IMG/VR virus record: IMGVR_UViG_3300020410_000067
Location: 1 to 22,975 of that record
Direction: 5' to 3' (one strand)
Length of the DNA: 22,975 nt
Origin: a virus
A model generated the notes under the pieces. That model was given only the letters and a program-made list of their open reading frames with translations, was not told where the DNA came from and ran no database searches. A program made the position numbers and the translations under genes. Within the stretch, counting starts at the first letter, position 1. Every line of letters begins with the position of its first letter. Positions 1,793 through 19,679 of the stretch are shown here, piece after piece.

Positions 1793-3706
1793 ATGCCATC
1801 TGGTAAAGCGACAACTATAGAAACATGGGCGGATTATCAGGCACTCCGCCGTCAAGGGATATCTTTATATGCAGCTTCAAAGCAAACAGGACTCTCTTAC
1901 CACGCTTGCCGAGACGCAGAAAACGGCAAAGCTCCGAGAAATTTCATCGCCGCCCAAGAAGCTCTGGGTAAAACAATCCAACCAGAGGTCCCACAATACG
2001 ATGACCTTTGCCCTGAAGCACAAGCAGCGTACGACAACATAGAAGTTTTCGCTAAAAGATACTTTGGTATCATTTTGCAACCGTGGCAAATAGAAGCAAC
2101 GGAACGAATAATGGGGTTAATGGACACAGAGTACGAAGAATACGCTGTTATTAACGCTCCACCCGGTACCGGAAAGTCAACATTCTTCGCTAAAGTATTG
2201 CCTGCATGGGCAACTATACGCAATCGTGCTATTCGTGGCATGATTGGGTCTTCAACGCAGCGTTTGGCCGAATGGTATTGCCGCAGGTTGCGTGCCGAAT
2301 TTGATCGAGCGCATCCGGTTAGAGCCGAATTAAACGATGTACGTTTAAATTTGGCGGTTGACGCTGAGGCCACGCTGCAAGAAGACTTCGGAATGTTTAA
2401 ACCAGATTCTTCAGAAATATGGCGTGCCGAAGCATTTACTGTGCTACAAAAGGATGACACTCCGTTAAGCCAAAAAGAACCCACATGGTCAGCTTTCGGA
2501 ATGGACTCCGGGTTTCTTGGAGGCCGTTTTGATTTAGTCATATGGGACGACGTATACGACCCACGCAAAATGCGATCCGCAGAAGCACGGGAAGATATGC
2601 GTCGATGGTGGGACGAGGTGGCAGAAACCCGACTAGAACCCGGTGGTTTGCTCGTTCTACAGGGACAACGCATGTCAGCAGACGACATTTACAGGTATGC
2701 GTTAGACAAAGTGGCACCCCCTGACGATTACGAACTAGAGGAATTTGATCCAGAAGATGCCCCCGACGAATGGCGTAAATACACGCACCTTAAATATCAA
2801 GCGCATTATGAAGAACTATGCAACGGCGATCCTGAAAACCACAAGCCCGGTGGGAAACCTTGGCCCGGAGGATGTTTACTATACCCACGACGTTTACCGT
2901 GGCGACGACTACGACACATTAAGGCACAAACTCCTGACCGATTTGAGGTCTTGTACCAGCAATCGGATGTAAACCCAGCAAATGTATTAGTTGACCCGTT
3001 ATGGGTTAGCGGCGGACAGGGCCCTGATGGGGTAGATCACCCCGGATGTTGGGATAATGACCGTGATTTGTGGGAATTACCGCAAGGAATATCAGACGAT
3101 TTGTTTGTTGTAGCAACAGCAGATCCGTCGCCAGCTAACTTTTGGGCTTTGCAATGTTGGGCATATAACCCTGAAACAGAGTTCAGATATTTGTTAGAAT
3201 CCTATCGACGTAAAATGGATGCCCCGTCGTTTCTTGATTGGAGCCATGAAACTCAACGATTCACTGGAGTCGCTGAAGAGTGGTGGCAAATTAGCAACGA
3301 TATGGGTAAACCAATTACCCATTGGATTATCGAAGCAAATGCGGCCCAAAAATTTATTCTCCAATATGATCACTTTCGCCGCTGGGCAGCGCTACGCAAT
3401 GTCCAGTTGGTTCCGCATTACACGCATTCTAAAAACAAAGGCGACCCCAAGTACGGAGTGCAAATGTTGGCTCCGTTATGGCGCGTTGGCCGAGTGCGTT
3501 TGCCCGGAAAACAAAACACGGAAGCAAGACCGCATTCCCTTTTACTAGTAAATGAAGTAACACGATGGAACCCAGAAGGTACAGGTTCACGCACCGATGA
3601 CTGTGTTATGGCAGAATGGTTTTTGGAACATAATTTAGAGAAAATCTATGTTCCGACTATAGTTAATAACCAACAGTGGCGTCCATCGTGGGTCACTAGT
3701 GCATAG
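1793..3706 (+). CDS. terL: Terminase large subunit (packaging ATPase-nuclease)
   Basis: The motor that cuts concatemeric DNA and pumps it into the prohead through the portal. In the 637 residues the Walker A motif is PPGTGKST at 123-130 and the Walker B strand is DLVIWDD at 247-253. A GQR segment at 291-293 fits the coupling motif. The C-terminal RNase-H-like nuclease has candidate metal-binding acids at D444 (ATADPS), E514 (WIIEAN) and D602/D603 (TDDCVMAEWF). Residues about 10-48 form a helix-turn-helix-like extension, unusual because DNA recognition normally belongs to a separate small subunit, and none is recognisable here. A strong AAGGGGG lies four bases before the ATG. The portal follows, as is usual. 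Confidence 0.93.
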   Translation: MPSGKATTIETWADYQALRRQGISLYAASKQTGLSYHACRDAENGKAPRNFIAAQEALGKTIQPEVPQYDDLCPEAQAAYDNIEVFAKRYFGIILQPWQIEATERIMGLMDTEYEEYAVINAPPGTGKSTFFAKVLPAWATIRNRAIRGMIGSSTQRLAEWYCRRLRAEFDRAHPVRAELNDVRLNLAVDAEATLQEDFGMFKPDSSEIWRAEAFTVLQKDDTPLSQKEPTWSAFGMDSGFLGGRFDLVIWDDVYDPRKMRSAEAREDMRRWWDEVAETRLEPGGLLVLQGQRMSADDIYRYALDKVAPPDDYELEEFDPEDAPDEWRKYTHLKYQAHYEELCNGDPENHKPGGKPWPGGCLLYPRRLPWRRLRHIKAQTPDRFEVLYQQSDVNPANVLVDPLWVSGGQGPDGVDHPGCWDNDRDLWELPQGISDDLFVVATADPSPANFWALQCWAYNPETEFRYLLESYRRKMDAPSFLDWSHETQRFTGVAEEWWQISNDMGKPITHWIIEANAAQKFILQYDHFRRWAALRNVQLVPHYTHSKNKGDPKYGVQMLAPLWRVGRVRLPGKQNTEARPHSLLLVNEVTRWNPEGTGSRTDDCVMAEWFLEHNLEKIYVPTIVNNQQWRPSWVTSA

Positions 3707-3726: not shown

Positions 3727-5487
3727 GTGAGATCCACTGACGAGATTATTAGTCTTTATACCACAAGGTCTAATGCCAATGGTAGCGCTAAAGCAAAAAT
3801 GCGTAACCTTCGAGATTATTATAACGGAGATGTTGTTGTCCCGTTGCCTGAACTTGACACTGACGAAAAATCTGCGGTAGCTAATCTTTTAGCGCAAGGG
3901 CTAGATCAAACAGCGATGCGTATTGCGTCAACATCGCCTGACATTTATTGCCCACCTACAGACACAAACACAAAACGTGCTAGAGACAATGCAGCTATTA
4001 GACGCAAAGCTATTTTTGGTTGGTGGGAACATTCACGAATGGATCTCCAGTTAGCTAAACGTGCCCGGCAATTAGTTGGGTATGCCACAACGTGTACACA
4101 ACTTCGTTATAACTACAAAACTGGTTGCCCAGAATGGCATGTGCGTGATCCTTTGACAGCGTATCCGTCAAAACTTTTGGGCGTAGAAGACATGCGACCA
4201 CGAGACGTAATTTTTAGTTACGAACGTTCGTTGGGGTGGCTGATGGCTCATTACCCCGAAGTTGGAATTAAATTTAATAACGACGGCAAAATAAGCGCAG
4301 ACCATCCAATAGAAATGATTGAATACGTTGATGGCGAAGAACAAGTTCTTATTGCTACAAGATCAGCAGTAACTACTGTTTCTTTTGGTGTGTCAACTAC
4401 ATCAAGTCCTTTTATGGCAGAAGAACTAGAACGTGTCCCTAACCCATTAGGCGAAACACCTGTTGTATTTGCTGAACGTATAAGTCTTGACGGAGCCCAA
4501 GGCCAATTCGATGGCATTCTTGGCATGTACCAAATGCAAGCTCGATTAATGGCACTCGAAGTAATTGCTGTGCAAAAAGGCGTATTCCCTGATACTTGGC
4601 TAGTTGGTCGTCAAGGCGAAACACCGCAGATAGTTAATCCTGCTGATGGGTTAACAGGAGAAGTTGGTGTTATCCGTGGCGGCGAATTGCGTGATATGCA
4701 AACTTCGCCCGGATATATGACTAACCCTGCAATTGACAGGTTAGAACGAGCCCAACGATTAACTGCTGGTATTCCACAAGAGTTTGGTGGCGAATCAACA
4801 TCGAACATTCGTACAGGTAGACGAGGCGATGCGGTTTTGTCAGCAACAGTTGATTTTACAATTCAAGAAGCGCAACGCATTATGTCAAGATCGCTGCAAG
4901 AAGAAAACAAAATTGCAGTTACGATGGCAAAAAAATATGCGGGCGGTAAATCACATTCGTTTTACGTCACTACAAAAGGTGCTACAGGGCAAGTTGATTA
5001 CAAACCAAACGCAAACTTTGATTCAACACAAAACGTTGTTTCATATTCCCACCCCGGTGCAGATTTAAACAACCTTGTTATTGGCGGTGGGCAACGTGTT
5101 GGCATGGGCACAATGTCCAAACAATCGTTTATGTCGCTTGATCCTTTGGTAGATGACCCAGAGTTTGAACACGACACTGTGGTTGCAGAGCAACTAGAAC
5201 AAGCTCTTTTAAGTTCAGTGCAACAACAAGCTGCTGAAGGAGTTATTCCTCCAGCGGATCTTGCTCGCATTATGGATTTAGTGCGTAGCAACAAAATGGA
5301 TCTTGCTGATGCAGTAAGCAAAGTGCAAAAAGAAGCACAAGAACGACAAGCTGAACAAGTTCCGCCAGATGCTCCTGAAGCTCAACCGGGGTTAGCTTTA
5401 CCGGGAATGGGGGCAGAAGCAGGTATAGCCCCACCAGTAGAAGCTGAACAAGGACCATCTATCCAAGACCTTATTGGAGCACTGTAA
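3727..5487 (+). CDS. Portal protein
   Basis: A 586-residue protein forming the dodecameric ring at the capsid vertex through which DNA enters and leaves. Placement right after TerL, length and sequence style fit the SPP1 gp6-like portals of phages remembered as infecting Actinobacteria. The N-terminus has LRDYYNGD (about 28-35). The region from about residue 349, with IPQEFGGESTSNIRTGRRGD and then a long helix rich in Gln and Arg, fits the portal stem and crown. The last 55 residues are rich in Pro, Glu, Gln and Ala and probably disordered. The start is GTG, five bases after GAGG at 3718-3721. It contains three cysteines, unlike the six proteins after it. Confidence 0.88.
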   Translation: MRSTDEIISLYTTRSNANGSAKAKMRNLRDYYNGDVVVPLPELDTDEKSAVANLLAQGLDQTAMRIASTSPDIYCPPTDTNTKRARDNAAIRRKAIFGWWEHSRMDLQLAKRARQLVGYATTCTQLRYNYKTGCPEWHVRDPLTAYPSKLLGVEDMRPRDVIFSYERSLGWLMAHYPEVGIKFNNDGKISADHPIEMIEYVDGEEQVLIATRSAVTTVSFGVSTTSSPFMAEELERVPNPLGETPVVFAERISLDGAQGQFDGILGMYQMQARLMALEVIAVQKGVFPDTWLVGRQGETPQIVNPADGLTGEVGVIRGGELRDMQTSPGYMTNPAIDRLERAQRLTAGIPQEFGGESTSNIRTGRRGDAVLSATVDFTIQEAQRIMSRSLQEENKIAVTMAKKYAGGKSHSFYVTTKGATGQVDYKPNANFDSTQNVVSYSHPGADLNNLVIGGGQRVGMGTMSKQSFMSLDPLVDDPEFEHDTVVAEQLEQALLSSVQQQAAEGVIPPADLARIMDLVRSNKMDLADAVSKVQKEAQERQAEQVPPDAPEAQPGLALPGMGAEAGIAPPVEAEQGPSIQDLIGAL

Positions 5488-5882
5488 TGCCACGTAAAGG
5501 CAAGGGATCTAAAACCCAAGCTATTCAAACAGCCAAAGATCAAACGTACGGGTCTGCTAAACAACAAGAAATGGCACAAGAAGTTGCGCCACTTCCACAA
5601 AATGTAGCAGGTATGGGAGAACCAACAGCGTTGCCTCCTAGCAGAGTAATGCCCGGTAGCGCAGGTGATTTGTTTAGAACTACAGATCGTCCAATGGAAC
5701 CTTCGTCAGCTATGCCATCGCAAATAAGAGAACCAAAACTTACTCCTGAACGTTCTCAATTGTTGTTCCAAACTATGCCGTTACTGCAAGCAACAGCAAA
5801 TAATCCTTACGCTAACCCAGACATGCAACAAACTGTTTTGCAAATGGAAACGTTTTTACCAACACGATTTGATGCGTCGTGA
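5487..5882 (+). CDS. Small post-portal virion protein
   Basis: A 131-residue protein with a basic N-terminus (MPRKGKGSK), a Pro/Met/Gln-rich middle and a helical C-terminus. Its segment around residues 64-71 (RTTDRPMEP) resembles a short conserved motif that I remember in small proteins found next to the portal in metagenomic phages. The exact role is unknown; a head-completion or internal protein is plausible. The ATG overlaps the portal stop (TAATG), and its own stop overlaps the GTG start of the giant gene (GTGA). It has no cysteine. Confidence 0.75.
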   Translation: MPRKGKGSKTQAIQTAKDQTYGSAKQQEMAQEVAPLPQNVAGMGEPTALPPSRVMPGSAGDLFRTTDRPMEPSSAMPSQIREPKLTPERSQLLFQTMPLLQATANNPYANPDMQQTVLQMETFLPTRFDAS

Positions 5883-8800
5883 GTTTTACCGGTCGGCTTT
5901 ACAACATTTTTAGAGCGCCTGTTGATTTTGGTGCGCAAGCTGCTGATCTTTTTGTTGACACTATTCGACTAGCTGACGATGAAGAATTCAGTGTTTTCGA
6001 AGCGTTTAACGAATCGTGGAAAGACAACATACTAGGAAAAATGAGCGCATCTAATCAAGGTGTCGCTGGGCGTTCAGTAATAGGTTCTTTCTTTGGCCCG
6101 GATACTGGTATTGGTGCAGCAGTCGGGGCAATCCCTGAAAGTATAAGAGAAGAACCAGCCGCTGTTTGGAACCTAACAATGGACGGTTTCAATTACGCAA
6201 TTAAAAACTTTGTTGACCGGCCTATCGGCACAATGGTCACAATGGCAAGCCTTAACCCGTTTGAGGCTAGAGACCCTGTAACTGGTATGCGTACAGGTCG
6301 TGGGTTTAACACCAAAATTTTTGATTATGGCACATGGCAAAATGCTTGGGAACTAACAAACGACAGAAGCGCTGGTCAAGCAATCATGCTGTTTTCTGGT
6401 CATGTAGATATTTTAAATCCAACTTCTGTAGAAGAATTTAAACAAACACCTAAGTACCAGTTTGTTTCCGGCATTTTTGATGCTGGCATTAACGTTGTTG
6501 GAGACCCAGCTTATGCGGGCATTAAAATTAGCAGAACTGCATTTAATATTAATAGAGCTAAAAAAGCTCGTCTTGATCCAGACAATGTAGGTAAAGATTT
6601 ATTTCCTGAAAAACAACTTGAATATATAGATATTGATGGGTCAGGTAACCCAGTTCCTGTTTACAGAGTTCAACCCGGGTTATTGCCAAATGAAAGCATG
6701 GGGCCTTTTTACGAACAAGTACGTCCACCTGTAAGAAATCAACCAATTATTGTTCGCACACCTACAAGAGAACCAATTCGTATTGGTGGACAAAAACTGC
6801 ATGAAAAAATTCAACAGTTTGAAGGGAAGTATCCTTACCTTGAAACGTTGTTAGGCGGCAGTGTTTTAGACATGCTTACTATTGGCGGTGGCAAAGTCGT
6901 AGGCAGCACACGCTCTGTTGATTCTTTGTTGTTTGAAAAATTTGATTACCAACCTGCGTGGATGGACAATATCCCAGAACCACGAGATATTTTTGATGCA
7001 GCAACAGTGCCTATCACTAAAGAGTTGCAGCAAATTGTTATTAATGAAACAAATAACTTAGCTCTTTATGGCATAAGACCTTCTGCAACCTATTTGCAAA
7101 CAGGTGATCTCGGAGCAGCCCCACAGTTTGGACCTGATTTAAACAATGGAGGCTTAGTCCCTGCAATAGAAATTGCTAGTCGCAGCAATGTTCTTGGCGA
7201 AACAAGTCCAATATTTGACACTGATGCTTCGATAACAGAATTTCTCGAAAGAGAAGGTGCTGCTGATCCTAGTGATCCTTTCCCAGTTTCTTTAGCTGAA
7301 GGCGATGTCACCCCGGTTACAGACGAAGTACGTGTTAACTATCAAGCATACAAAGCTGCGTATGACACTTACGACTTAGACGTTTTAGCTCTATTAAATC
7401 GTGACGAAATTGTTAATGAAGTAACTGCTGGGTTAAGAGGATACGGCGTCAATCTTGATTTTAATTTTAAAGATGATGTTTACCGTCAAGCAAAACGTGA
7501 CTTTGAAGCAGCGATATATAGAAACGAACTTCCTTACGATACAAACGTTGATTTTAATGTTGAAGCTGCTATAGCCCGAATTAATGGTGAATTAGTAGAA
7601 GCAGCAGATGCGTACAAACGACAATTTGACAACGAAATATATAGGCCTGACAACGTAGATACAGACCCTGAAGAGTTCCGAAGAGCCGAAGCAGAATTAG
7701 AATTAGCAGAAGATGGTTTATACGCTATTGCTGAACAACGGTTGCAATTAGAACTTTATGCAGCACATATTGATACTGTTTTTGGGCCATTAGAAAAAGT
7801 TAAAAACAGTCTTCAAACAATGAAGAAAGTTCCAAGCACAGGCTTAGATCAGTTTTACGGCACTGGGCTTTGGAATATAAATAGAAACAACGCTGCCCAA
7901 GAAATTATAGCTTTACGTATTTTTCAAAAAATGCCACAGTGGGGTCCAGCGTTTAAACATATGACGCCTGAAGAACGATGGCAATTGTCAAAAGTTTATG
8001 CAACATTAGCTAACGCTGCACCTGTAGATAGTTCTGCTTGGTTGCCGTTCCACAACTTTATTCGTTATGTAAATGGCAACGTTGCTGTAAAAGAAGCAAT
8101 GCACGCACAGTTAAAAGAAATGTCGCATCTTTGGAGTTTGTTGCGACGTGTGCCGGGCCCAATAAAAGATCAATACAACAGATTCCCTGACGAATTTGAT
8201 TATGACTGGCGTACAAGTTTAGGAGAAATGGATGAAACGCCGGGGCCAATGGCTGAGTTCCCAGCAATACTTGAACGCCCTACATCTTTACACTGGCATT
8301 TTTCAGAACTAGGTCGTGTAAGAAAAGAAATAGCGTCATTTGATGCTCACAGAAAAAACATGGGACAAGCAATGGGGGAGATGGCCGCAGATGATGCGTT
8401 CCAGCAAGGACGTGCAGCGTCTCTTGAACCTACTGCGATTCCTGACGAAATAAATCGTTTAGACAAAATTCACGTTGACCACATTATTGATGTGTTGCTT
8501 CAAAAAGAAAAAGCGCACGCTATTTTTATACAGCATTACTTGTTTAGCCCACAAGCTTTAGAAGATATGAGTATCCAAGCAGCGCAATTAGAATTGCGAG
8601 AAGCATTAGATGCAACTGGCGTTTTAGATGAAGCTATGTACGCAGATGTTGCACCTGAAGATTTAGCTGGAGCTTCAGAAGCGTTACTTGACTACGAACA
8701 ACGGCGTCGTTCTTGGGACGATCCAACAAAAGAAGGCATTGAAAAGTTTAGGACAATGCCTATTAAACCGTTGAACTTGGATGCAGCAGAAATCATTTTA

Positions 8801-11800
8801 GGTCGATCAGGAGATTCAGAACTTGCTGAATTATTTGATCGTTTACACGAAATGCAAAATTTTCCGTGGCAAGCAGTGCTAGCTGATAACGAAGGTACTT
8901 ACAAAAATTTAATGCAAGATGTGTATTCGTTACTTCCAGCGAATCACGATCTTTACAACCCTGAATTAATTGTTAGAGGGACTAGCGACATACCTGCTGC
9001 TGGTGAATTAAATCCGTTAGTCGATCAACAAGAAAACATGAATCGGCTTCGGAACCATGAAATTATTTCTCCACGGGAAATGCATGAAGCAGCGATAGAT
9101 AATCTTTTTCAAACTATTGATTTAGAAATTCCTAGAACAATTGATGGGTTTGATTCAATTCTTAAACCTACGACCAAAGCAGGTCTTGCAGCACGAACCT
9201 TTTTTGAAAAATCTGGTTTATACGCTGGGTTTACAAATTCACGTGCTTACAAACTGTTTAGTGAAAAAGTTTTAGAAGGCATTATTGATGTCAATAATAA
9301 AAACCAAGTAGTTACAGAACTAGAAAAGTTCTTCCGTGATTTAGAAAGAATTAACGTTTCTAAAATAATGCAAAAGCATCATGGCAGAGCAACCATGTTA
9401 GAAAGCGGTGAACCACTTTCGTTGCTTGACGTAGCGTTAATGAGTTATCGTTCTAATCTTCCAACATGGGAAGGCATAAGTTTAGATAATCGACCAACAG
9501 ATAAAGGCACGTCGCAACTTTGGGCGGACCAAACGTTGATTGATTTAGTTGATACACCGCCTGAACGGTTAGGTCCTAAACTTGACAGGTTAATTAACGG
9601 CGTACTTACTGGGTTTGTTGAATCAATAGTTCCTGACAAAAAATTTGATGGGCTCACTTGGACAGGACCAGACGTTCGTTCTAATTTGATAACTATTCTT
9701 CGAGGCGAACTTTCAGCAGTTAAAAAAATGCTTGAAGAAAGCGCCGACGCTACAGGTAAAAAATACGGCAACGTTGATTTCACAGACGTTATTGGGACCA
9801 ACGAGTTAGGCGAAACTGTTTTTGTTCGCAAACCTATTGCTCCTAGTCAAGTTAGACAAACAGTAATTATGCCACGTATAGATAGGTGGAAAGATTTAGA
9901 ACGAGCGTTAATGGGTGATTTCAAATCTATAGAAATTGCCGGGAAACAAATGCAAATAGGTCTTACTCCTGCTCGTGCTACTTTGCGTAACCTTTTAATG
10001 GAAACTCAAAGTACGTGGAAAACAATTAACTTGCTTACACCACGTTGGCAAATGGTTGTAAATATTGATTCGCAACTTCGTTTACAAGCAGCGCTTGAAA
10101 CATCATTAGGGGTAGCAAGAATTGGGCCTGCATTTAATACTTTGCAAGCTAGGTGGCTACGCAATGACGGTGTAGACATTCAAGCTATTGTTCAAAACGA
10201 ATTGTTTGAAGAACTAGGCGGGTTTGAGCGAATCACCGAAACTCAAAATTCAATGGCTGACATTCAAAGCGAACCTGATCTTCTCGAATTTGATCAAGCT
10301 GAATATTTTGACAACGTTAAACGCCCTTCGTACGCACGTTTGTTAGAAGAAGAAGCAATTCTTCAACGGCGTAACTTTATTGAAATGGTTGACCTTTATT
10401 TAGACGATGGTCAAGACATTGTAGAATTTGTAACTGGTGTAATAGAAAAAGAATACGCACGACGGCAAACTAAACGACTTGGCACAGCTACAGCACTAGG
10501 TCTTTATTTTACTGGTCCTGTTGGAGCAGCCGCAGCAGCAGGTGCTTACACTGCTCATAGCCGTACAAGCATAGCTAACGCTGCTCGACGAATGGTTGCT
10601 GAATCATACGGTATTGCCGCACGTAACGCTGCTTGGGTTTCTTTAAGAGAAGCTGAAGCTGCTGACATGTTTAATTGGTTGGCAGAAAACTATCCGGGTC
10701 GTTACCAAACAATTAGCGATGACTTATTCGGAGTAGAATCTTTAGATCAACTTATGGAAGAGCCTCAACGCTTTTTCCCTGCCGATAACTTTTTAGGTAC
10801 AGCTAACACAACTGAATCTAAAATGTATGCTGCGTTGCTAGCAGAAAAAAATGTATTAGAAGGCGACGATGTAGCCAGTTATATCAATGACCGTATTTAT
10901 GAAGAGGTTATTGACCCTTACACAGATGCAGCAAACTTAGGAACTTACACTGCTGTTATACCTGTAAGCCAAATTACAACCGCTGATTTTTATAGGAATG
11001 CATCAGCAGGCACTCGCAAAATTATTGATGCTCGCATAAACGAATTAAAACGTACTTTAAGTGCACGTGAACAAACTGATATTTTGCGTAGATCACAAGA
11101 AGGTATTCCTGATTATGCTTTAGAAGGAATCGAAAATTTAGAAGATTTCCTTGGAGACGCTGATCCTATTCTTGCAGAATTAGCGAACATAGTAAATACG
11201 CCAGAGCTAGTACAAAATTTTGAAGTAATAGGAATTGAAAATTTCTATAGTCGTCCGTTAGATGAATTCCCATTTGGTGGTTTAGATGTTCCACCAGCAA
11301 GTCAAGTTGATTTCTTATCTTCCGAAAAAGCTACTGATTTAATTGGTGAACATTTTACGCTTTTAGATTTAGCAGCAGAAGCCAATCAAGCTTTTAAAGA
11401 CCGCAGACGAGCAGCAGAGTTAATTTCTAACAACGTTGAAGCTGTATCTGATTACGATAAAACAGTTGTACAAGGTTTCCAGACAGAGTTTCCTCACACA
11501 GCACAAACGTTTGAACGTGCTGCACAAATTTTAACTGAAGGTGGATTTAGTACAACGCAAATAGGTTCAACTCGGATTGATAGTGCGTTTGGCAATATAC
11601 CTTCACAGCAAGAAATTAATCGACGCAATATTTCTGCGAACAACACCGCCCGTATTCAAATACAAGGCGCTAACCATATTCAACGTAGAAAAGAAAAATT
11701 CCAAGGATCTCACCAATACGACTTTATGAATCGTGTTGAACGAGACAGCTTTGTAGCTGCTTACAATGATTTTGCTGACCGTATTTTGTCTGCCAAAGGA

Positions 11801-14479
11801 CCAGAAGGTGTAACTGCTGATCGTGATTTTTGGCGGCAATTTATTCGTACACCAAACGCAAATCTTACTGATGCAGAAATTCTGCAATGGTTACGCACCG
11901 ACGGTAGACAAGTAATAGAAAATTGGGTACCTAGAGATCAAACACCAGAAGAGTTAACTAACTTAGTGTTTAAAGCTCGTTACGAATCAATGAGCCAAGT
12001 ACCAGCTATTTTGCCGGGATTTGAAGCTGTTGTTGAAAAATTTCAAGCAGGCACAACAATCACGTGGCAAGCTGACATTGTTCCTGCTTTAGATAAACTA
12101 CAAAAGTTAAGTGATTCTACTTGGGATCAAATTTTAAAAGCGTTTATAGACGACAACGAATTACGTCAAATAGGAGTATCTAGTGGTATCCCAGCTTTTG
12201 ACGAAATAACTGGTGTACCTCTATGGGATTCTGCGTTAACAATGTGGGATTCTTTTCGAGATGGCAAAGTATTACGTTGGATTGATGCCACTGGAAATCT
12301 TGACATTGATTTAACGGTAGACCCTGTTCTTCGACGTTTAATGATTGCTTCTTACGAAAGCGCTGCTGAATCTATAATTACGAATACCGGGCAGTTATCG
12401 TTTGACCAAAGAATGACAGCAATGACTGTCGCTAAACGTCGTGACATTGTTGAACAGATTCGTTTATTAGGTGAACGCAATATCAAGTTTGTAGAAGAAG
12501 TTGAAGACGTTGCGTTTCTCAGGTCAGCTTCGCCAGCGTCTATTAAAAACAGTCGCCCGTTACCGGGCGAAGAAGGCTTACGTGATTTTGGAAGAACTGT
12601 AACTGATTCTCAGTTCTTAGATTCAAAACAAACTGCGACTATTTGGGAACGCATAAAACAAAAAATAACTCAACCACTAGAAAACTTAGGCGAAGTTGAA
12701 AGCAGTATGTCACGAGGCGTAATGTACGATGCGCTTTATACAGCAGATGTTATTCGTCGTTTACAACCTTTTAAAGTAGGTGACGCATACCACATTTCAG
12801 ATAAACGTATGTATCAGTTACAAGAAAAAGCACGCAAATGGGCTCGGGTTGAAACAAATAATCAACTTTACGATTTAGCGTCACGTACACGAATTGAAGA
12901 AATGCTTTGGCTTGTTGCACCTTTCTTTGGCGCATGGCAAGAAGTTCTTGGACGATGGTTTAGTTTGGCGTACGAAAATCCTGTGTTCGTAGCACGAGGG
13001 TTACGACCTTTTGCGCTTCTATCTGGTGAAGACGAAAACGGTCAATCAATTGCAACTTTCCAATTACCAAACATAATCGGTGCAAAAACTGAAACAGATT
13101 GGATTCCGTTTGTCGAATCAGTGGATTGGTTTGGCGATTTAAGCATTCTTTCTGAAATGCCAATGGACTTAAAACTAGGGTCTGGTTCATTTATCGCTGC
13201 GTTACCGGGAGTGAGCCCTGCTATTACTGTTGGCGCTGGAGAAGCAATCCTTGCGGTACCGTCGTTAGATAAAACTTTAGGGTGGTTAATTCCTTACGGA
13301 ATAGCTGAAGGCGACAACACATTTACACGCATATTGTCAAGTTTGTTGCCAGCGTGGACTAAAAATATTGCTCGCAAAGGTTTACTTAACAAGCTTTATT
13401 TAGATGATGACCGTCGCAAAGCTACTGCTGCACGAGTTTTGATTGACATGATGGTTCAATACAACGAGCAAGGCATTGTGCTTCCGACAACTGGGCAAGC
13501 GTTAAAAGATTTTAATGCTGAAGCAAAACGTCGTACTGAAATGATTTATGGCATACGGTCATTGCGTAACTTGGCAGTACCAACGTCAGCGTTGCAACAG
13601 TCGCCTTATTATCCAGTTATTAAAGAGTACTGGAAAGTTCTTGAAGAACATGGGCCAGAAATAGCTGATGCGTACATACTAGAAAATCATTTTGATATGT
13701 GGCCGGCTACTGCCCGTACTCAACTTACGATAGAAGCAATTGCAGGCACACGCCAAGGTCACGAAAATTATGAACTGCATAAACAAGACGCAACAGAGTA
13801 CCAAGAAATAGCTTCGTGGATTATTGGGCAGGTTGGGCCAGAAGAAGTTAAATGGGAATACAACCGGAATATTCGTCGCCTTGAAACTCTTGAAGGACGT
13901 GTAAGACCTTTAACTTTAGGCGAACAATTTGAAGATGCGACTGCTACACAAGGTTGGCGAGAGTGGAAAGATTTCCGTATAAAACTTTATGCTGATTTAG
14001 CGCAACGTAAAAAAGCTGGTTTGTCTGGAGCTATTTCTTCTCATTACGATTTAGTACAAAAACGGCGATCTTTTATTCATAATCTTGGTCAACAATTCCC
14101 AGCGTGGCATGAAGAGTTTTACAGCACTAATGATCCTTTAAAGGTGCAAAGAACTTTAGCTGGGTTCCGTCATGTTGTTAAAGATCCTGCATATGCAAAA
14201 CGACTTGATGTTGTGCAAATAGGACAATTTTTAGATTTGCATGATGGTATTGCTAGAGATTTAGAAATGCGTGCTAAAAGTTTTAATAGTTCTAGATGGG
14301 AACGCCTTAGTTATAAAGGCAATGAAGATTTGCGAGTTAGATGGGAACTAGGTATCGCAAAATTATTGTTGCAACCAGACTTTGGAAATGTCTATGACAG
14401 GTTCTTTAGTAATATAGAAACAGTTTCTGTTGGAAATAGCCCGTTGCGTGAACCAGCAACACTTGGGAGCGCAAGATAA
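5879..14479 (+). CDS. Giant virion protein, probable DNA-ejection/internal protein
   Basis: A single 2866-residue reading frame, 37% of the window. The GTG start is the first possible one, because an in-frame TGA lies at 5870-5872; no Shine-Dalgarno is seen, so coupling through the GTGA overlap is likely. The N-terminus (about 1-215) and the C-terminal third, with VAPFFGAWQEVLGRWF near residue 2345, resemble very large structural proteins that I remember from aquatic phages. It is mostly helical and charged. A Gly/Ala-rich hydrophobic segment lies near residues 1535-1560 and another near 2435-2475; either could touch a membrane. It contains no cysteine. I find no Walker motif, no lysozyme or protease signature, and no Rx3Kx6-7YG polymerase motif. 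Position and size suggest ejection with the DNA. A tape-measure role is the main alternative. Confidence 0.85.
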   Translation: MSFTGRLYNIFRAPVDFGAQAADLFVDTIRLADDEEFSVFEAFNESWKDNILGKMSASNQGVAGRSVIGSFFGPDTGIGAAVGAIPESIREEPAAVWNLTMDGFNYAIKNFVDRPIGTMVTMASLNPFEARDPVTGMRTGRGFNTKIFDYGTWQNAWELTNDRSAGQAIMLFSGHVDILNPTSVEEFKQTPKYQFVSGIFDAGINVVGDPAYAGIKISRTAFNINRAKKARLDPDNVGKDLFPEKQLEYIDIDGSGNPVPVYRVQPGLLPNESMGPFYEQVRPPVRNQPIIVRTPTREPIRIGGQKLHEKIQQFEGKYPYLETLLGGSVLDMLTIGGGKVVGSTRSVDSLLFEKFDYQPAWMDNIPEPRDIFDAATVPITKELQQIVINETNNLALYGIRPSATYLQTGDLGAAPQFGPDLNNGGLVPAIEIASRSNVLGETSPIFDTDASITEFLEREGAADPSDPFPVSLAEGDVTPVTDEVRVNYQAYKAAYDTYDLDVLALLNRDEIVNEVTAGLRGYGVNLDFNFKDDVYRQAKRDFEAAIYRNELPYDTNVDFNVEAAIARINGELVEAADAYKRQFDNEIYRPDNVDTDPEEFRRAEAELELAEDGLYAIAEQRLQLELYAAHIDTVFGPLEKVKNSLQTMKKVPSTGLDQFYGTGLWNINRNNAAQEIIALRIFQKMPQWGPAFKHMTPEERWQLSKVYATLANAAPVDSSAWLPFHNFIRYVNGNVAVKEAMHAQLKEMSHLWSLLRRVPGPIKDQYNRFPDEFDYDWRTSLGEMDETPGPMAEFPAILERPTSLHWHFSELGRVRKEIASFDAHRKNMGQAMGEMAADDAFQQGRAASLEPTAIPDEINRLDKIHVDHIIDVLLQKEKAHAIFIQHYLFSPQALEDMSIQAAQLELREALDATGVLDEAMYADVAPEDLAGASEALLDYEQRRRSWDDPTKEGIEKFRTMPIKPLNLDAAEIILGRSGDSELAELFDRLHEMQNFPWQAVLADNEGTYKNLMQDVYSLLPANHDLYNPELIVRGTSDIPAAGELNPLVDQQENMNRLRNHEIISPREMHEAAIDNLFQTIDLEIPRTIDGFDSILKPTTKAGLAARTFFEKSGLYAGFTNSRAYKLFSEKVLEGIIDVNNKNQVVTELEKFFRDLERINVSKIMQKHHGRATMLESGEPLSLLDVALMSYRSNLPTWEGISLDNRPTDKGTSQLWADQTLIDLVDTPPERLGPKLDRLINGVLTGFVESIVPDKKFDGLTWTGPDVRSNLITILRGELSAVKKMLEESADATGKKYGNVDFTDVIGTNELGETVFVRKPIAPSQVRQTVIMPRIDRWKDLERALMGDFKSIEIAGKQMQIGLTPARATLRNLLMETQSTWKTINLLTPRWQMVVNIDSQLRLQAALETSLGVARIGPAFNTLQARWLRNDGVDIQAIVQNELFEELGGFERITETQNSMADIQSEPDLLEFDQAEYFDNVKRPSYARLLEEEAILQRRNFIEMVDLYLDDGQDIVEFVTGVIEKEYARRQTKRLGTATALGLYFTGPVGAAAAAGAYTAHSRTSIANAARRMVAESYGIAARNAAWVSLREAEAADMFNWLAENYPGRYQTISDDLFGVESLDQLMEEPQRFFPADNFLGTANTTESKMYAALLAEKNVLEGDDVASYINDRIYEEVIDPYTDAANLGTYTAVIPVSQITTADFYRNASAGTRKIIDARINELKRTLSAREQTDILRRSQEGIPDYALEGIENLEDFLGDADPILAELANIVNTPELVQNFEVIGIENFYSRPLDEFPFGGLDVPPASQVDFLSSEKATDLIGEHFTLLDLAAEANQAFKDRRRAAELISNNVEAVSDYDKTVVQGFQTEFPHTAQTFERAAQILTEGGFSTTQIGSTRIDSAFGNIPSQQEINRRNISANNTARIQIQGANHIQRRKEKFQGSHQYDFMNRVERDSFVAAYNDFADRILSAKGPEGVTADRDFWRQFIRTPNANLTDAEILQWLRTDGRQVIENWVPRDQTPEELTNLVFKARYESMSQVPAILPGFEAVVEKFQAGTTITWQADIVPALDKLQKLSDSTWDQILKAFIDDNELRQIGVSSGIPAFDEITGVPLWDSALTMWDSFRDGKVLRWIDATGNLDIDLTVDPVLRRLMIASYESAAESIITNTGQLSFDQRMTAMTVAKRRDIVEQIRLLGERNIKFVEEVEDVAFLRSASPASIKNSRPLPGEEGLRDFGRTVTDSQFLDSKQTATIWERIKQKITQPLENLGEVESSMSRGVMYDALYTADVIRRLQPFKVGDAYHISDKRMYQLQEKARKWARVETNNQLYDLASRTRIEEMLWLVAPFFGAWQEVLGRWFSLAYENPVFVARGLRPFALLSGEDENGQSIATFQLPNIIGAKTETDWIPFVESVDWFGDLSILSEMPMDLKLGSGSFIAALPGVSPAITVGAGEAILAVPSLDKTLGWLIPYGIAEGDNTFTRILSSLLPAWTKNIARKGLLNKLYLDDDRRKATAARVLIDMMVQYNEQGIVLPTTGQALKDFNAEAKRRTEMIYGIRSLRNLAVPTSALQQSPYYPVIKEYWKVLEEHGPEIADAYILENHFDMWPATARTQLTIEAIAGTRQGHENYELHKQDATEYQEIASWIIGQVGPEEVKWEYNRNIRRLETLEGRVRPLTLGEQFEDATATQGWREWKDFRIKLYADLAQRKKAGLSGAISSHYDLVQKRRSFIHNLGQQFPAWHEEFYSTNDPLKVQRTLAGFRHVVKDPAYAKRLDVVQIGQFLDLHDGIARDLEMRAKSFNSSRWERLSYKGNEDLRVRWELGIAKLLLQPDFGNVYDRFFSNIETVSVGNSPLREPATLGSAR

Positions 14480-15825
14480 TGAGTGTTTTAAGCATAGTTT
14501 GGGATGTACTTTCTAACGCAGATGACGTAGCACGAACGATTCTTTTACCTTCGACTAAAGCTTTTATTGATAAAGGAAAAGAGTTAGAAGAAAAAGGTGC
14601 TAACGAAGAAGAAATAAAAACAGCTACAGAAAAATCTGTTAATCAACTTGTTGCAGCTAACGAAGCTGCGCTAATGACACCTGACGAAATTATTTTAACT
14701 CCTGAAGAAATTGCTGCTGGTAAACGGCGTGAAGAAAAACTTGCTGAATTAGTACTTAACGAAGGTTTTGCAGTAGGCGAACAAGACCCTGATCTTTATG
14801 GAACAGCTAGTGTAATAACTGATCCGGGGATGTTAGCCGCAGGTCGATTAGCTTACGAAGACACTGCTGTTGAACAACAAGATTGGGCTGCTGTTACTAC
14901 AGGGAATATGCCACGGCTTCGTGGTGCTGCTCCTCCTAGAGATACTTTAGGGTTTCAAGATGTCCCTTACGTAGATTACATCGAAGGAAGTTTGCCTCAA
15001 CAAAACCCGTTAGTTGTTGGGCGAGGCCTTGGTTGGGAAATAGATGAGTCACGTATTGCTGATGGGCAAAGTTTTATAAGAAGCGTAGAACGCAACGTTC
15101 CGTTTACTGTTCGTGATGCAATGACTTTGTATGATGCCCAAGATCCAAATACTCAAAAGTTAATTGCTCAATCTTTAGCTATTGGCACAGGCGATAAATC
15201 GTTTATGGCAAATGCTTTAGGTGACAATATGTTCCGTGATCCATCAATTATTTACGACCGTGAATCAGTAATGCTCGGATTGTTAGAAATGGCTAACGAA
15301 ATTTCTTATAGAGCAGGTTTATCTGGGGGTGGTATGGATGCGTACGAAATGATAAAAACAGAAATTCCTAAACTTCGTGCTGAAGATTTTGCACCAGAAG
15401 GACCTCGTAATTACGTTCTTTTAAATCCTGTTCAAGCTGGGCTTATGGGTCAAGCAGTTACTCGCACTGGTTTAACGTTAGATTTGTTAAGTGATGAGCT
15501 TTTTGATTTAGCTGCTAACACTGGTGTTGTTAAATTAATATCGCAAACGCATAGTCGTGCATTAGCTAGCGATATATACAGGCGTGTTGTTGGGCGAGAA
15601 CCAGATGAAGTTGCTCTTACTTTGTTTGATGAATGGAGCTTAGAAGCTCAACAAAACAACATGGGTGTTTCTAGACAACCAACTGATACAGAAATGAAAT
15701 CGTATTTTGGTGAACAAATTATAAAAGAAACTGAAGAAGGCGGAGAGTTCCAAGAAGAGAAACTGTTAATAGATAGCGAAAGCGCAATGGACGCCATCTT
15801 TAAAGCGTTTGGGAGTAGACGATAA
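14479..15825 (+). CDS. Putative internal virion protein
   Basis: A 448-residue protein, mostly helical and acidic, with a coiled-coil-like stretch near residues 30-60 and another near 77-90. A motif around residues 366-385 (YRRVVGREPDEVALTLFDEW) resembles an ending that I remember in large structural proteins of aquatic phages. The start overlaps the stop of the giant gene as TAATG, and GGGAG sits nine bases before the ATG. No cysteine is present. Co-translation with the giant gene suggests that the two act together inside the particle. No enzymatic motif is visible, so function is inferred from context. Confidence 0.75.
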   Translation: MSVLSIVWDVLSNADDVARTILLPSTKAFIDKGKELEEKGANEEEIKTATEKSVNQLVAANEAALMTPDEIILTPEEIAAGKRREEKLAELVLNEGFAVGEQDPDLYGTASVITDPGMLAAGRLAYEDTAVEQQDWAAVTTGNMPRLRGAAPPRDTLGFQDVPYVDYIEGSLPQQNPLVVGRGLGWEIDESRIADGQSFIRSVERNVPFTVRDAMTLYDAQDPNTQKLIAQSLAIGTGDKSFMANALGDNMFRDPSIIYDRESVMLGLLEMANEISYRAGLSGGGMDAYEMIKTEIPKLRAEDFAPEGPRNYVLLNPVQAGLMGQAVTRTGLTLDLLSDELFDLAANTGVVKLISQTHSRALASDIYRRVVGREPDEVALTLFDEWSLEAQQNNMGVSRQPTDTEMKSYFGEQIIKETEEGGEFQEEKLLIDSESAMDAIFKAFGSRR

Positions 15826-16796
15826 TGGTTATTGAACCTATTCCAGAAGAAAAAGATCAAGCAACACTTGATTATGAAGCGTTGTTACGTGGTTTTAATT
15901 GGTTGTTAAGCCGTCAAGATATGGAAATTGATGGGCGCCATGTTTTTGAAATCATTCAACAGGATGGAAAAGCGCAAGGGTTTGTTTCCCAAGATCAATA
16001 CGACAGGTGGGTTGAATCCTTAATACAACAAACTCCTTACTACAAAAATTTTGGTAAAGGTAAATTTGGTAAAGACGCTCAATGGAATGATGGGGAAACA
16101 GGAAGTGGTTGGTCAGGTCGTAGACGTGCGCTTGTTAAAACACAAGAACAATTAATTCGTGACGAGTTATTAAATCTTGGGTTGGAATGGTCTGACGGCG
16201 AAATACTTGCAGCGGCAAAATATGCTTGGGAACAAGACATGGGCGAAGCAGAAATTCGCCGGTATCTTGCAACTGATATTAAAACTCCAATATCTTTTGG
16301 AGAGGATGTTGAAGGTGGCACTACACAAGCTGATCTTCGTACAACGATTCTTGGTATTTACGATAATTATCTTATTGATCCTGATGACAACGTAATTAAC
16401 GAATGGGCTCGGCGTGCTTATATTGGCAACGAACAAGAGCAATTAGATTTGTTGCGTTCGTTATTAGGCGAACAAGCAGAAGATTTGTACCCTGCTGTAG
16501 CGGAACGTATACGTGCAGGACGTAGCCCGTTAGACATTTTGGGTTCTTATGGCAGCGTTTTTTACAGCATTATGGGTTACCAACCTCAATGGAAAAATGA
16601 ACACCGTAAATTAGCGCTTGATATTTTAAGCGGTGATCAAAAAGACGATGGCGCTTATACCCCGTTAACTGCTAATAGTTTTGCGTACCGGGTAAGAACG
16701 TCAGAAGAAGCAGATTACAACCCTAATATTTTTAATGAAACAATGTCTTTTGTAAATCAAATAGGTTCTTTAATGGGCCAAACCACAAGGATTTAA
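15825..16796 (+). CDS. Putative internal virion protein
   Basis: A 323-residue protein with two helical stretches that read like domains: about 105-150, with QLIRDELLNLGLEWSDGEI then a WEQDMGEAEIRRYL-type helix, and about 201-250, ending in FYSIMG. The alternation of short helices around Trp and Gly is typical of the ejection-like proteins next to capsid genes in aquatic phages, as I remember them. It starts on a TAATG overlap with GGGAG nine bases upstream, the same arrangement as its predecessor. No cysteine is present. I cannot name a family. Confidence 0.75.
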   Translation: MVIEPIPEEKDQATLDYEALLRGFNWLLSRQDMEIDGRHVFEIIQQDGKAQGFVSQDQYDRWVESLIQQTPYYKNFGKGKFGKDAQWNDGETGSGWSGRRRALVKTQEQLIRDELLNLGLEWSDGEILAAAKYAWEQDMGEAEIRRYLATDIKTPISFGEDVEGGTTQADLRTTILGIYDNYLIDPDDNVINEWARRAYIGNEQEQLDLLRSLLGEQAEDLYPAVAERIRAGRSPLDILGSYGSVFYSIMGYQPQWKNEHRKLALDILSGDQKDDGAYTPLTANSFAYRVRTSEEADYNPNIFNETMSFVNQIGSLMGQTTRI

Positions 16797-16797
16797 A

Positions 16798-18084
16798 ATG
16801 GTTGAAGTAGATCTCAACGCCTTGCACGCAAAAGGTCAGCAGATGTTACGCCAGTACCAAGCTAACCAGTTCACTACAGGTGCTTTAGAGTCAATGGCTT
16901 TTGATAACACTACTGCCCCTACTCCAAATACAGGGATGAATCAATATAATTTAGATGAAGCTATTCGTAGAATGAGCCAAGAAGCTCTTAAAGATTACGA
17001 CATGCGTAGCGGTTTCCCAGTTGCTCCAGTTGTTCCAACTGTTCCTGTTCCTAGTGGTCCTAGCAACCCCGAGAACGATTTTTTTATTGACATACCGGAC
17101 GGAGATCTAGTTCCACCTAACCCACAGTCGCCACGAAACCCTAACGACTCACAACGTGATGAATATTTAGAATACATGAAAGAAAAAGGAATGCGTAGCG
17201 CTGAAGGAGCGATGCGTGGATTCTTTGGTCAATTCTTTGGAGCAGAAGCTGGTAGTGCATTAGCTCAATGGGCAATAAGCCAAATAGCTTTAGGGTACGA
17301 CGCTGACACAATCATTATGCAAATGCGATTTGGTAGTTCTACTGTTGCAACAACAGATGCAATGTACGTGCCAAAAGAAATTAGAGATCTTTACGACAAA
17401 CGTTTTCCTGCAATGGCATTGCGTGATGAAAATGATGCACCGTTAAGTGAAGCTCAATACGTGCAACAAGAAAGCGGCCTTCGAGCAATTATAGATAAAA
17501 CTGGTTTAGGAGCCTACGTCACTGCACAAGAAGCTTTAGGCAAAGACCCGATAACTACGTTAATAGCTAACAATGTATCGGTAGCAGAATTCGCAGGGCG
17601 TGCAGAAGAAGCTGAAGATATGTACTACAACTCAAACCCTGAAACTGTAGCTATGTTAAAACGAGATTATAAGTGGGATAAAGCAGATTTTATGGCAGCA
17701 ATGGTTGACCCTACGTTTATGGCAACCTCGTCTTTAGCTGAAGCTAAACGTGCGTATAACGCATCAAAACTTACTGGCATGTCACAAAGAGTTTTAGGAA
17801 CTACCTCGTTTAATAAAGATTTAAGTAGAAGTCTTTTAAATCAAAACGTTCAAGAACGTGAAGTAGCTGCACAATTAGGGCAATTTGCAGGTTTAGCAGG
17901 TAGCACAATTAGCTCTGACGCTATGACAGGTACTGAACTTGGTGAAGGTATATGGGGATCAGGTGAAGCTAGAGCAGATTTACGTCGTGAAAATGAAAAA
18001 CGACGCAGCCAATTTAGTGGGACTACTGGCAGCATGATTAATGCTGCTGGCAATACTTCACTTGGTTCTGTTTACACTACCTAA
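16798..18084 (+). CDS. Putative internal virion protein of a common aquatic-phage family
   Basis: A 428-residue protein. Residues 72-90 are a Pro/Val linker, followed by an acidic stretch. A helix-rich region begins with FFGQFFG at about 142. A conserved-looking block runs from about 198 (YDKRFPAMAL) through about 257 (NVSVAEFAGRAEEAEDMYY) to about 320, and the C-terminus carries a charged helix (ARADLRRENEKRRSQFSG) and a Gly/Ser-rich tail. I remember this arrangement from proteins encoded near capsid genes in marine phages, without a known function. AAGGA lies six bases upstream of the ATG. No cysteine is present. It is the last gene before the capsid promoter. Confidence 0.75.
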   Translation: MVEVDLNALHAKGQQMLRQYQANQFTTGALESMAFDNTTAPTPNTGMNQYNLDEAIRRMSQEALKDYDMRSGFPVAPVVPTVPVPSGPSNPENDFFIDIPDGDLVPPNPQSPRNPNDSQRDEYLEYMKEKGMRSAEGAMRGFFGQFFGAEAGSALAQWAISQIALGYDADTIIMQMRFGSSTVATTDAMYVPKEIRDLYDKRFPAMALRDENDAPLSEAQYVQQESGLRAIIDKTGLGAYVTAQEALGKDPITTLIANNVSVAEFAGRAEEAEDMYYNSNPETVAMLKRDYKWDKADFMAAMVDPTFMATSSLAEAKRAYNASKLTGMSQRVLGTTSFNKDLSRSLLNQNVQEREVAAQLGQFAGLAGSTISSDAMTGTELGEGIWGSGEARADLRRENEKRRSQFSGTTGSMINAAGNTSLGSVYTT

Positions 18085-18086
18085 AT

Positions 18087-18115
18087 TTGCATTCACCTTT
18101 CGTATACTTTATAAT
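18087..18115 (+). promoter_or_regulatory. Sigma70-type promoter for scaffold and capsid genes
   Basis: TTGCAT at 18087-18092 and a perfect TATAAT at 18110-18115 are separated by 17 bases, the optimum spacing. They lie in the 120-base gap before the scaffold gene, the largest gap between genes in the window. The -35 box matches consensus at only its first three bases. Transcription would start near 18121-18123, about 80 bases before the scaffold ATG. This would let the shell proteins be made in larger amounts than the upstream block. Confidence 0.6.
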
Positions 18116-18119
18116 TTGT

Positions 18120-18148
18120 TTGTTGGCCCCAAACGGGTGAGCTAACAA
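18120..18148 (+). other. Stem-loop at the predicted 5' end of the capsid-operon mRNA
   Basis: TTGTTGGC at 18120-18127 pairs with GCTAACAA at 18141-18148 (eight pairs, one G-T). Inside it CCC at 18128-18130 pairs with GGG at 18135-18137 around the loop AAAC, with TGA bulged, giving 11 pairs in all. It begins at or just before the expected transcription start. No T-run follows, so a terminator for the upstream block is less likely than a 5' hairpin that protects the message. Confidence 0.5.
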
Positions 18149-18204
18149 CCCTTCCATCTGAGGTTCCACCGCTGAAGATGTGCTACAGGATAGGTGAGTG
18201 ACAT

Positions 18205-18681
18205 ATGACAGACATTGACTCCACTCAAAATAGTGACAATGCTGGCAGTACTGAATCTGAGCCAAATTTTCGTCGTAAATACGAAAAAACTATTGAGGCA
18301 GAGAGAGCGAGAGCCGACGCTGCTGAAGCAGAAAACAAAATTTTAATGCGGGATAAAACGTTTAGATCAGCAGGACTTGATCCTGATGATGCTCGTGTAA
18401 AATATTTTGTTAAAGGCTACGAAGGCGACCTTGATGTTGACGCAATCCGTATGGAAGCTGAAGCTGCTGGGTTTTTAAATGTGGCAACACAACCTTCAAG
18501 CCAACCTAATGCAATAATGCCTGATGTTTTACGAACAGAAGAACGCATTCAAGCGGCAGGTGAAGGCGGAGATCCAGTTGTCCCACCCGATTTTTCTCAG
18601 AGATTAGCAGCAACTACTTCGGAAGAAGAAGTGCGGCAGTTAATGGAATCTCAGGGAGTAATGTGGAACGCTAGCGTTTGA
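18205..18681 (+). CDS. Capsid scaffolding protein
   Basis: A 158-residue acidic protein directly before the major capsid gene, the standard scaffold position. Residues about 20-55 form a charged helix rich in Arg, Glu and Ala, typical of scaffold coiled coils. RSAGLDPDDARVKYF (about 54-68) is of a type common in scaffolds, and the last 40 residues form an acidic helix that may bind the shell. The N-terminus is polar and likely disordered. It would guide shell assembly and then leave the head. AGGTGAG at 18192-18198 lies six bases before the ATG. It has no cysteine. No protease domain is seen. Confidence 0.8.
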   Translation: MTDIDSTQNSDNAGSTESEPNFRRKYEKTIEAERARADAAEAENKILMRDKTFRSAGLDPDDARVKYFVKGYEGDLDVDAIRMEAEAAGFLNVATQPSSQPNAIMPDVLRTEERIQAAGEGGDPVVPPDFSQRLAATTSEEEVRQLMESQGVMWNASV

Positions 18682-18722: not shown

Positions 18723-19679
18723 ATGGCAACCCCCTCAGTAACAACTTCAACTCTGGACGATCAGGTACAGGCTGCGTTCGATCAGGTTGCGTATTTCGCT
18801 TTGCGTTCGCAACCATTGTTCGAAATGGTCGCTGACGTTCGTTCGACAGCACAGAGCCACAACGGTTCTAGTGTTAAATTTACTTTCCTAGCCGATCTTG
18901 GGCAGGCCACTACAGCGCTTACGGAAAACGCTGATGTGACAGCACAGGCATTGACTGACAGCCAAATAAACGTAGCTCTTGCAGAGTACGGTAATGCGGT
19001 TATCACCAGTGCCAAGCTGCGTGGAACATCATTCCTTAACGTAGACGCTGATGCAGCCAACATTGTTGGTTACAACATGGCTGACTCAATGGATAAAATT
19101 GTGTCTGATGTTGCCAATGGCAGCACCGACGCCAATCAAATTATCCATTCGGGCCAAACAAGCCGTGGCGCAATCACAGCTACTGATAACTACACTGCTG
19201 CGTTAGGCAGGCAAGCCGTAGCTAAGTTGCGGACTGCTAACGCTCCCGGTTGGGAAAACGGCAACTATATGGCAATTATTCACCCTGATGTTTCTTACGA
19301 TCTTCGTGGAGATACAGCGGTGACTGACGTTGTTAACTACCAGTTGTACCAAGAAGGAGGCCCAATTCGTGCAGGTTCGATTGGTACTTTCAATGGCATC
19401 GAATACATTGAGAACCCACGTGCCGGTTTAATCGCCGACGGTGGTTCCGGTAACGTCGATGTTTACCAAACCCTTATCTGTGGCCGTCAAGCGCTTGCAA
19501 AAGCGCATTCACGTGCCCCCGGATTTGGCGCTGACCCAAGCATTGTTGTTGGTCCTGTGACTGACACCCTGCGTCGGTTCAATCCAATTGGCTGGTACCA
19601 CCTAGTCGGATACGGCATCTTCCGTGAAGCATGCATGGTCCGTGTGGAAGCAGCATCAACAATCGGAGCTAACTCCTAG
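18723..19679 (+). CDS. Major capsid protein, N4-gp56 family
   Basis: A 318-residue shell protein of the HK97-like fold. It matches the N4-gp56 capsid pattern: an N-terminal helix with LRSQPLFEMVAD (about 27-38), a beta region with VKFTFLADLG and LTENAD (51-71), an EYG at 88-90, HPDVSYDLRGD at 187-197, GSIGTFNGIEYIEN at 218-231, and a C-terminal FNPIGWYHLVGYGIF at 286-300. Length is typical for the family. It follows the scaffold at 41 bases, with a hairpin in its ribosome-binding region. It uses the leucine codon TTA rarely, unlike the upstream block, in line with high expression. A strong hairpin follows the stop. Confidence 0.93.
   Translation: MATPSVTTSTLDDQVQAAFDQVAYFALRSQPLFEMVADVRSTAQSHNGSSVKFTFLADLGQATTALTENADVTAQALTDSQINVALAEYGNAVITSAKLRGTSFLNVDADAANIVGYNMADSMDKIVSDVANGSTDANQIIHSGQTSRGAITATDNYTAALGRQAVAKLRTANAPGWENGNYMAIIHPDVSYDLRGDTAVTDVVNYQLYQEGGPIRAGSIGTFNGIEYIENPRAGLIADGGSGNVDVYQTLICGRQALAKAHSRAPGFGADPSIVVGPVTDTLRRFNPIGWYHLVGYGIFREACMVRVEAASTIGANS

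Follow-up and report, generated by a model that had tools for sequence, protein, structure and literature searches.

Conserved cysteine depletion in a gene block that best fits an ejection apparatus, in a phage related to the Beephvirinae

Introduction

The virion RNA polymerase of N4-like phages lacks cysteine, a property that has been proposed to help it pass the tail or the periplasm (PMC3715699, PMC2784036, PMC3915230, PMC4837373); a passage of PMC2784036 credits the point about the cysteine-free polymerase to Kazmierczak 2002. Low cysteine content is also known in autotransporters and RTX proteins, including RTX lipases, which pass a pore unfolded with little or no cysteine (PMC3297439, PMC3034196), although these proteins are secreted outward rather than entering a cell, and have no common descent with the proteins described here. 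We found no rule for whole ejection blocks or for tape measures in the literature searched, in which subscription journals were thinly covered.

Ejection proteins evolve fast, so many of them are annotated as hypothetical. Podoviruses carry wall-cutting enzymes in the ejection apparatus, T7 gp16 being an example, and T7-type ejection sets include a transglycosylase. The DNA analysed here is a 22,975 nt stretch of a virus (IMG/VR record IMGVR_UViG_3300020410_000067, positions 1 to 22,975), hereafter the window. Its nearest annotated relatives are Streptomyces podoviruses of the subfamily Beephvirinae (RetrieverFever, Kumquat and Immanuel3), and a very short tail has been reported for one Beephvirinae relative (PMC11536984).

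Methods

Viral contigs were searched for relatives, the baits being the giant, the capsid and the terminase; iterated profile searches grouped the relatives into families, which were then deduplicated. The raw totals include cysteines that lie 5′ of likely or annotated starts, namely Cys14 of the giant of contig L163 and those in the scaffold extensions of contigs L076, L078, L080 and L083. Contig L138, which at first seemed an exception to the depletion, was excluded, as its apparent cysteine-bearing genes are short ORFs scattered over both strands and no intact giant was found there. For the survey of long ORFs in other phages, 16 phage stretches were chosen by hand and all ORFs of at least 600 aa in them were scanned.

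Results

An earlier note on this DNA claimed that six consecutive proteins contain no cysteine, and translation bore this out: the ORFs starting at 5487, 5879, 14479, 15825, 16798 and 18205 are uninterrupted and sum to 4354 residues without a single cysteine (Table 1). The counts that the note gave for TerL, portal, capsid and the small protein encoded at 1505 (eight, three, two and 13) were all reproduced, the first three proteins holding 13 cysteines in 1541 residues. The portal itself returned no match in a profile search. At the window's own control rates, 22–55 cysteines would be expected in the six ORFs and P(0) is 2e-10 to 1e-24; the homologues are depleted too, and the earlier judgement that the absence is not chance therefore holds. 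TGT and TGC occur 251 times in the two other plus-strand frames of the giant, and the zero is thus not a matter of base composition. Other cysteine-free proteins are encoded outside the block (at 149, 406, 1217, 21054 and 21668), so the zero means little for its short members individually; the weight of the depletion rests on the giant and on the homologue families.

Table 1. Features of the window and their cysteine content
Feature	Position	Strand	Cysteines	Basis or remark
TerL (control)	1793..3706	+	8	Translation and profile match
Portal (control)	3727..5487	+	3	Assigned by position and relation to relatives
131-aa protein between portal and giant	5487..5882	+	0	Homologue of Beephvirinae gp7 (RetrieverFever)
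2866-aa giant	5879..14479	+	0	Homologue of Beephvirinae gp9; phrog_10618
Giant, variable stretch, residues 201-1000	6479..8878	+		Long in some relatives, nearly absent in others
Giant, residues 1601-1800	10679..11278	+		Shared with 1 of 22 relatives only
Giant, conserved C-terminal core, residues 2190-2866	12446..14476	+		Mostly helical; shared with Streptomyces podoviruses
448-aa protein	14479..15825	+	0	Occupies the position of Beephvirinae gp10
323-aa protein	15825..16796	+	0	phrog_6654; C-terminal domain common to gp11/gp12
428-aa protein	16798..18084	+	0	Homologue of Beephvirinae gp13; phrog_8424
158-aa scaffold	18205..18681	+	0	phrog_7813; position of the annotated RetrieverFever scaffolding protein
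Major capsid protein (control)	18723..19679	+	2	PF13252

The order terminase, portal, small genes, giant, several genes, scaffold, capsid is identical in the window and the Beephvirinae. The five non-scaffold genes correspond by homology or position to gp7, gp9, gp10, gp11/gp12 and gp13, and in the Beephvirinae a homologous giant, a 15825-type and a 16798-type protein, the scaffold and the capsid follow one another as in the window; the Beephvirinae block (genes 7 and 9–13) is likewise nearly cysteine-free. All 23 giants scanned (the window's and those of 22 relatives) match phrog_10618, and the window giant aligns well with those of the Beephvirinae in the C-terminal part only, at about 20% identity. 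The two differ in the length of the giant (1635–1648 aa in the Beephvirinae versus 2866 aa), and the window has no endolysin between terminase and portal and lacks the tRNA array 5′ of the scaffold. A MAG contig with the label Gammaproteobacteria holds one relative; the label is of limited value, since viral contigs are binned unreliably and Streptomyces is the host of the nearest cultured relatives.

Of the wall-cutting enzymes of the Streptomyces phages, gp11 (RetrieverFever and its counterparts) belongs to the NlpC/P60 peptidases (E 1.7e-29) and gp12 to the SLT transglycosylases; T7-type sets resemble this composition in having a transglycosylase. RetrieverFever gp9–gp13 contain one cysteine in all, the catalytic residue of the NlpC/P60 peptidase (motif DCSGLV), so cysteine is retained where chemistry demands it. 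A domain search recognised neither the NlpC/P60 nor the SLT domain between the giant and the scaffold of the window, where the 323-aa protein shares the C-terminal domain of gp11/gp12 without their catalytic domains. The match to phrog_7813 and a position directly 5′ of the capsid gene, as for the RetrieverFever scaffolding protein, identify the product of 18205 as the scaffold; it is therefore rejected as a member of the ejection block, a scaffold not being ejected into the host, and the six proteins are not one functional unit. The other five genes best fit an internal ejection apparatus. The 131-aa protein is probably a small internal virion protein; we propose the giant as the main ejection protein and the products of 14479, 15825 and 16798 as further ejection proteins. 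We infer their ejection from position, homology and the wall-cutting domains of the relatives.

Among deduplicated homologues, no cysteine was found in the family of the 131-aa protein (56 homologues, 7,492 residues) or in that of the 448-aa protein (9,563 residues), and there were six in 88,599 residues of the giant family, three in 29,775 of the 15825 family, nine in 22,427 of the 16798 family and four in 4,818 of the scaffold family. The control families held 177 in 15,069 (TerL), 117 in 21,577 (portal) and 28 in 6,063 (capsid). Set against capsid, portal and terminase, as the earlier note had suggested, the six block families, scaffold included, thus contain 22 cysteines in 162,671 residues (0.014%) versus 322 in 42,708 (0.75%), an odds ratio of 0.018 whose p-value is nominal only because the residues of relatives are not independent. 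Cysteine is not common in close homologues, and the depletion is kept. As the four scaffold cysteines and one of those in the giants lie upstream of the likely or annotated start, the depletion is slightly stronger than these totals.

The pattern extends beyond the close families. Block genes of relatives with no homologue in the window are almost cysteine-free too, an additional contig from a genome collection again showed five cysteine-free block genes, and the depletion persists between families down to about 20% identity. Fifteen more distant giants have 23 cysteines in 31,832 residues, and a single one of these giants, that of contig L148, accounts for seven. The rare cysteines of 16798 homologues in contigs L041, L044 and L056 lie at chain ends, and a single cysteine 27–39 residues from the end of the giant recurs in L146, L148, L152, L160 and L161, the distance in L148 being counted to the end of the contig rather than of the giant. 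Across the 20 amino acids, cysteine alone is depleted this far in the block; histidine comes second (ratio 0.55). Histidine makes up 0.88% of residues in the block families versus 1.60%, and is also low in the P22, Sf6, SU10 and tape-measure proteins. Tryptophan, phenylalanine, leucine, isoleucine and tyrosine are at globular levels, and these normal hydrophobic and aromatic contents disfavour a disordered or low-complexity composition of the block.

Domain searches recognised no domain in the variable stretches of the window giant (residues 201–1000 and 1601–1800). For neither the variable part nor the C-terminal core was a structure model certain enough for use; the predicted models of the giant, of high uncertainty, are mostly helical. 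In fold searches, the only hits were the giant's own family and helical matches of no specificity (best Z 4.9). No RNA polymerase family of Pfam or PHROGs was matched by the window giant or its 22 relatives, and we reject the giant as a virion RNA polymerase, with the proviso that a domain invisible to profiles is possible. Two distant giants carry enzyme domains. That of contig L155 (L155:6633-13832) has an ADP-ribosyltransferase exoenzyme domain at residues 974–1133 (E 2.2e-12), and that of L148 (L148:14049-21668) has NADAR and DUF4326 domains at residues 986–1229, which hold six of its seven cysteines; both inserts open at about residue 900–950, between flanks that are homologous on both sides. 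NADAR enzymes undo the ADP-ribosylation of guanine (PMC11125620). From their domain content, these sequences suggest that giants of this kind may deliver effectors into the host, much as happens with T4 Alt.

Proven ejection proteins of other phages showed the same purge. The N4 virion RNA polymerase, given in the earlier note as cysteine-free, has indeed none in 3500 residues, in agreement with its published description, and N4 gp50–gp52, a set ejected with the DNA, have none in 4294; the polymerase is a cysteine-free giant like that of the window, but the two share no detectable homology and no polymerase family was recognised in the window giant. T7 gp6.7, 7.3, 14, 15 and 16 contain two cysteines in 2448 residues, both at residue 2, P22 gp7, 16 and 20 none in 1309, and the Sf6 ejection proteins one in 1326. 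The internal sets T7 gp14, gp15 and gp16 and P22 gp7, gp16 and gp20 are thus nearly or wholly cysteine-free, like the window block, although no sequence homology between them and the block is detectable and the window giant has about twice the length of T7 gp16. SU10 gp20, 21, 22 and 24 have no cysteine, the epsilon15 ejection set seven in 2728 residues, and crAss001 gp45, 47, 49 and 50 seven in 6944; from annotation and general knowledge, we take the proteins of these three phages to be ejection proteins. The tape measures lambda gpH, T5 pb2 and T4 gp29 (no cysteine in 2662 residues) are long, helical virion proteins, as the window giant is predicted to be, although they come from long-tailed phages and lie inside the tail tube and not, as is proposed for the window proteins, in the capsid.

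Pooled, these 30 annotated proteins contain 17 cysteines in 24,116 residues, nine of which lie within ten residues of a terminus. Starts of the form MCW, MCF, MCS, MAKKC, MSKRC and MGCN occur in T7, epsilon15, crAss001 and 16798 homologues, and crAss001 gp47 and gp50 and epsilon15 gp16 have a cysteine close to the C-terminus. In the hand-chosen stretches, 11 of 62 long ORFs lack cysteine, against 0.08 expected at 0.9%, and each of the 11 is either an established or a likely ejection or tape-measure protein, with three (SU10 gp24, the Kumquat giant and a 1672-aa gene of Bacillus phage Pascal) unproven. The Pascal gene (L166:18364-23382) encodes a hypothetical protein, for which the cysteine rule predicts an ejection role.

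Discussion

The cysteine depletion is real, strong and conserved, and our explanation extends the published N4 idea to a general signature. We consider it probable that the products of the genes from 5487 to 18084 form the internal ejection apparatus of a short-tailed Beephvirinae relative, from which cysteine has been purged against oxidation during unfolded passage. In such an apparatus, the ejection proteins would reside inside the capsid, exit before or together with the DNA, pass through the short tail in an at least partly unfolded state, and fold again within the cell envelope to form a conduit, with peptidoglycan-cutting domains belonging to the set in relatives. An unfolded chain in the oxidising exterior or envelope could form wrong disulfides or adducts and jam, hence the purge; we infer both that the passage is unfolded and that selection acts through thiol oxidation. 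The same purge in the proven ejection proteins of N4, T7, P22 and Sf6 and in tape measures counts for ejection, whilst a scaffold that is cysteine-free though not ejected, the few cysteines of the epsilon15 and crAss001 sets, and those of the distant giants count against it. The ejection role that the earlier note gave to the whole block is thus partly supported, by a conserved purge shared with proven ejection proteins, but not for the product of 18205.

The earlier note saw the reason in threading through a narrow tail, as does one version of the explanation given for the N4 virion RNA polymerase. Under threading alone, any protein passing portal and tail unfolded must be cysteine-free, whatever compartment it is bound for, since a disulfide or a misfolded chain would clog the channel. 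This has been published for N4-like phages (PMC3715699, PMC3915230) and would account for cysteine-free podoviral ejection proteins and tape measures. However, the co-injected enzymes P1 DarB (nine cysteines in 2255 residues) and T4 Alt (three in 682) enter through contractile tails with ordinary cysteine contents, which makes threading insufficient as the only reason, and, in our estimate, unlikely. We prefer envelope oxidation with moderate confidence, the distinction resting on these two contractile-phage enzymes. To our knowledge, neither DarB nor Alt acts in the envelope; that the cysteine-free proteins act in or cross this oxidising compartment may be the feature that separates them.

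Two rival readings invoke a more general property of virion proteins. Under the first, low cysteine would simply accompany a flexible or helical build or a place in the capsid interior, in scaffolds as much as in ejection proteins, and have no connection to ejection; the scaffolds of T7, P22 and the window's own family have no cysteine, the models of the giant are mostly helical, and a cysteine-free scaffold does mean that another cause of low cysteine exists somewhere. Yet we find this reading quite improbable, as cysteine is the only residue depleted so far in a block with globular levels of hydrophobic and aromatic residues, and the scaffolds of Sf6 (three cysteines), SU10 and lambda (one each) are not free of it. 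That all virion proteins avoid thiols, because particles spend long periods in an oxidising medium, with the block as the extreme case, would fit the portal and capsid families, at about 0.5% cysteine against 1.14% in ORFs outside the block. It appears very improbable, however, given exposed spikes, sheaths and portals at 0.4–2% in the phages tested and a block some 50 times below portal, capsid and terminase together. To chance, base composition or codon bias we attach practically no weight: P(0) is at most 2e-10, TGY codons are frequent in the other frames of the same DNA, and the depletion survives sequence divergence, so chance and base composition are rejected.

Beyond the one N4 giant, scarcity of cysteine seems to characterise ejected phage proteins in general. 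Only tentatively, and at somewhat less than even probability, do we put forward a wider proposal: that exclusion of cysteine is a general mark, readable from sequence, of phage proteins acting in or across the envelope (podoviral ejection proteins and tape measures), through envelope oxidation and not threading, and that the giants of this lineage serve as platforms for delivery, with a site that accepts enzyme cassettes (the ADP-ribosyltransferase of L155, the NADAR and DUF4326 domains of L148), and tolerate cysteine only where it is required by the cargo. If long cysteine-free stretches do mark ejection proteins, such proteins could be recognised in uncultured phages even where homology is lacking, and single placed cysteines could test the cause, envelope oxidation versus threading. 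The cassettes in two distant giants suggest that effectors are also carried into the host at the very start of infection.

Immediately 5′ of the terminase gene, the window encodes an acidic, lysine-free 92-aa protein with 13 cysteines (1505-1783), which is kept in 19 deduplicated relatives, each with 12–14 cysteines. Profile searches of Pfam and PHROGs matched this protein to no known family. Its family sequence is YGCDCEGEECVCHFYHYDCACxxCPDCADDCFCF ... ENPDICESCQ. It is possibly a metal-binding protein, and the opposite of the cysteine-free block. A longer contig, L003 (IMGVR_UViG_3300020308_000006, 29452 bases), carries a giant 100% identical to that of the window and could extend the window.
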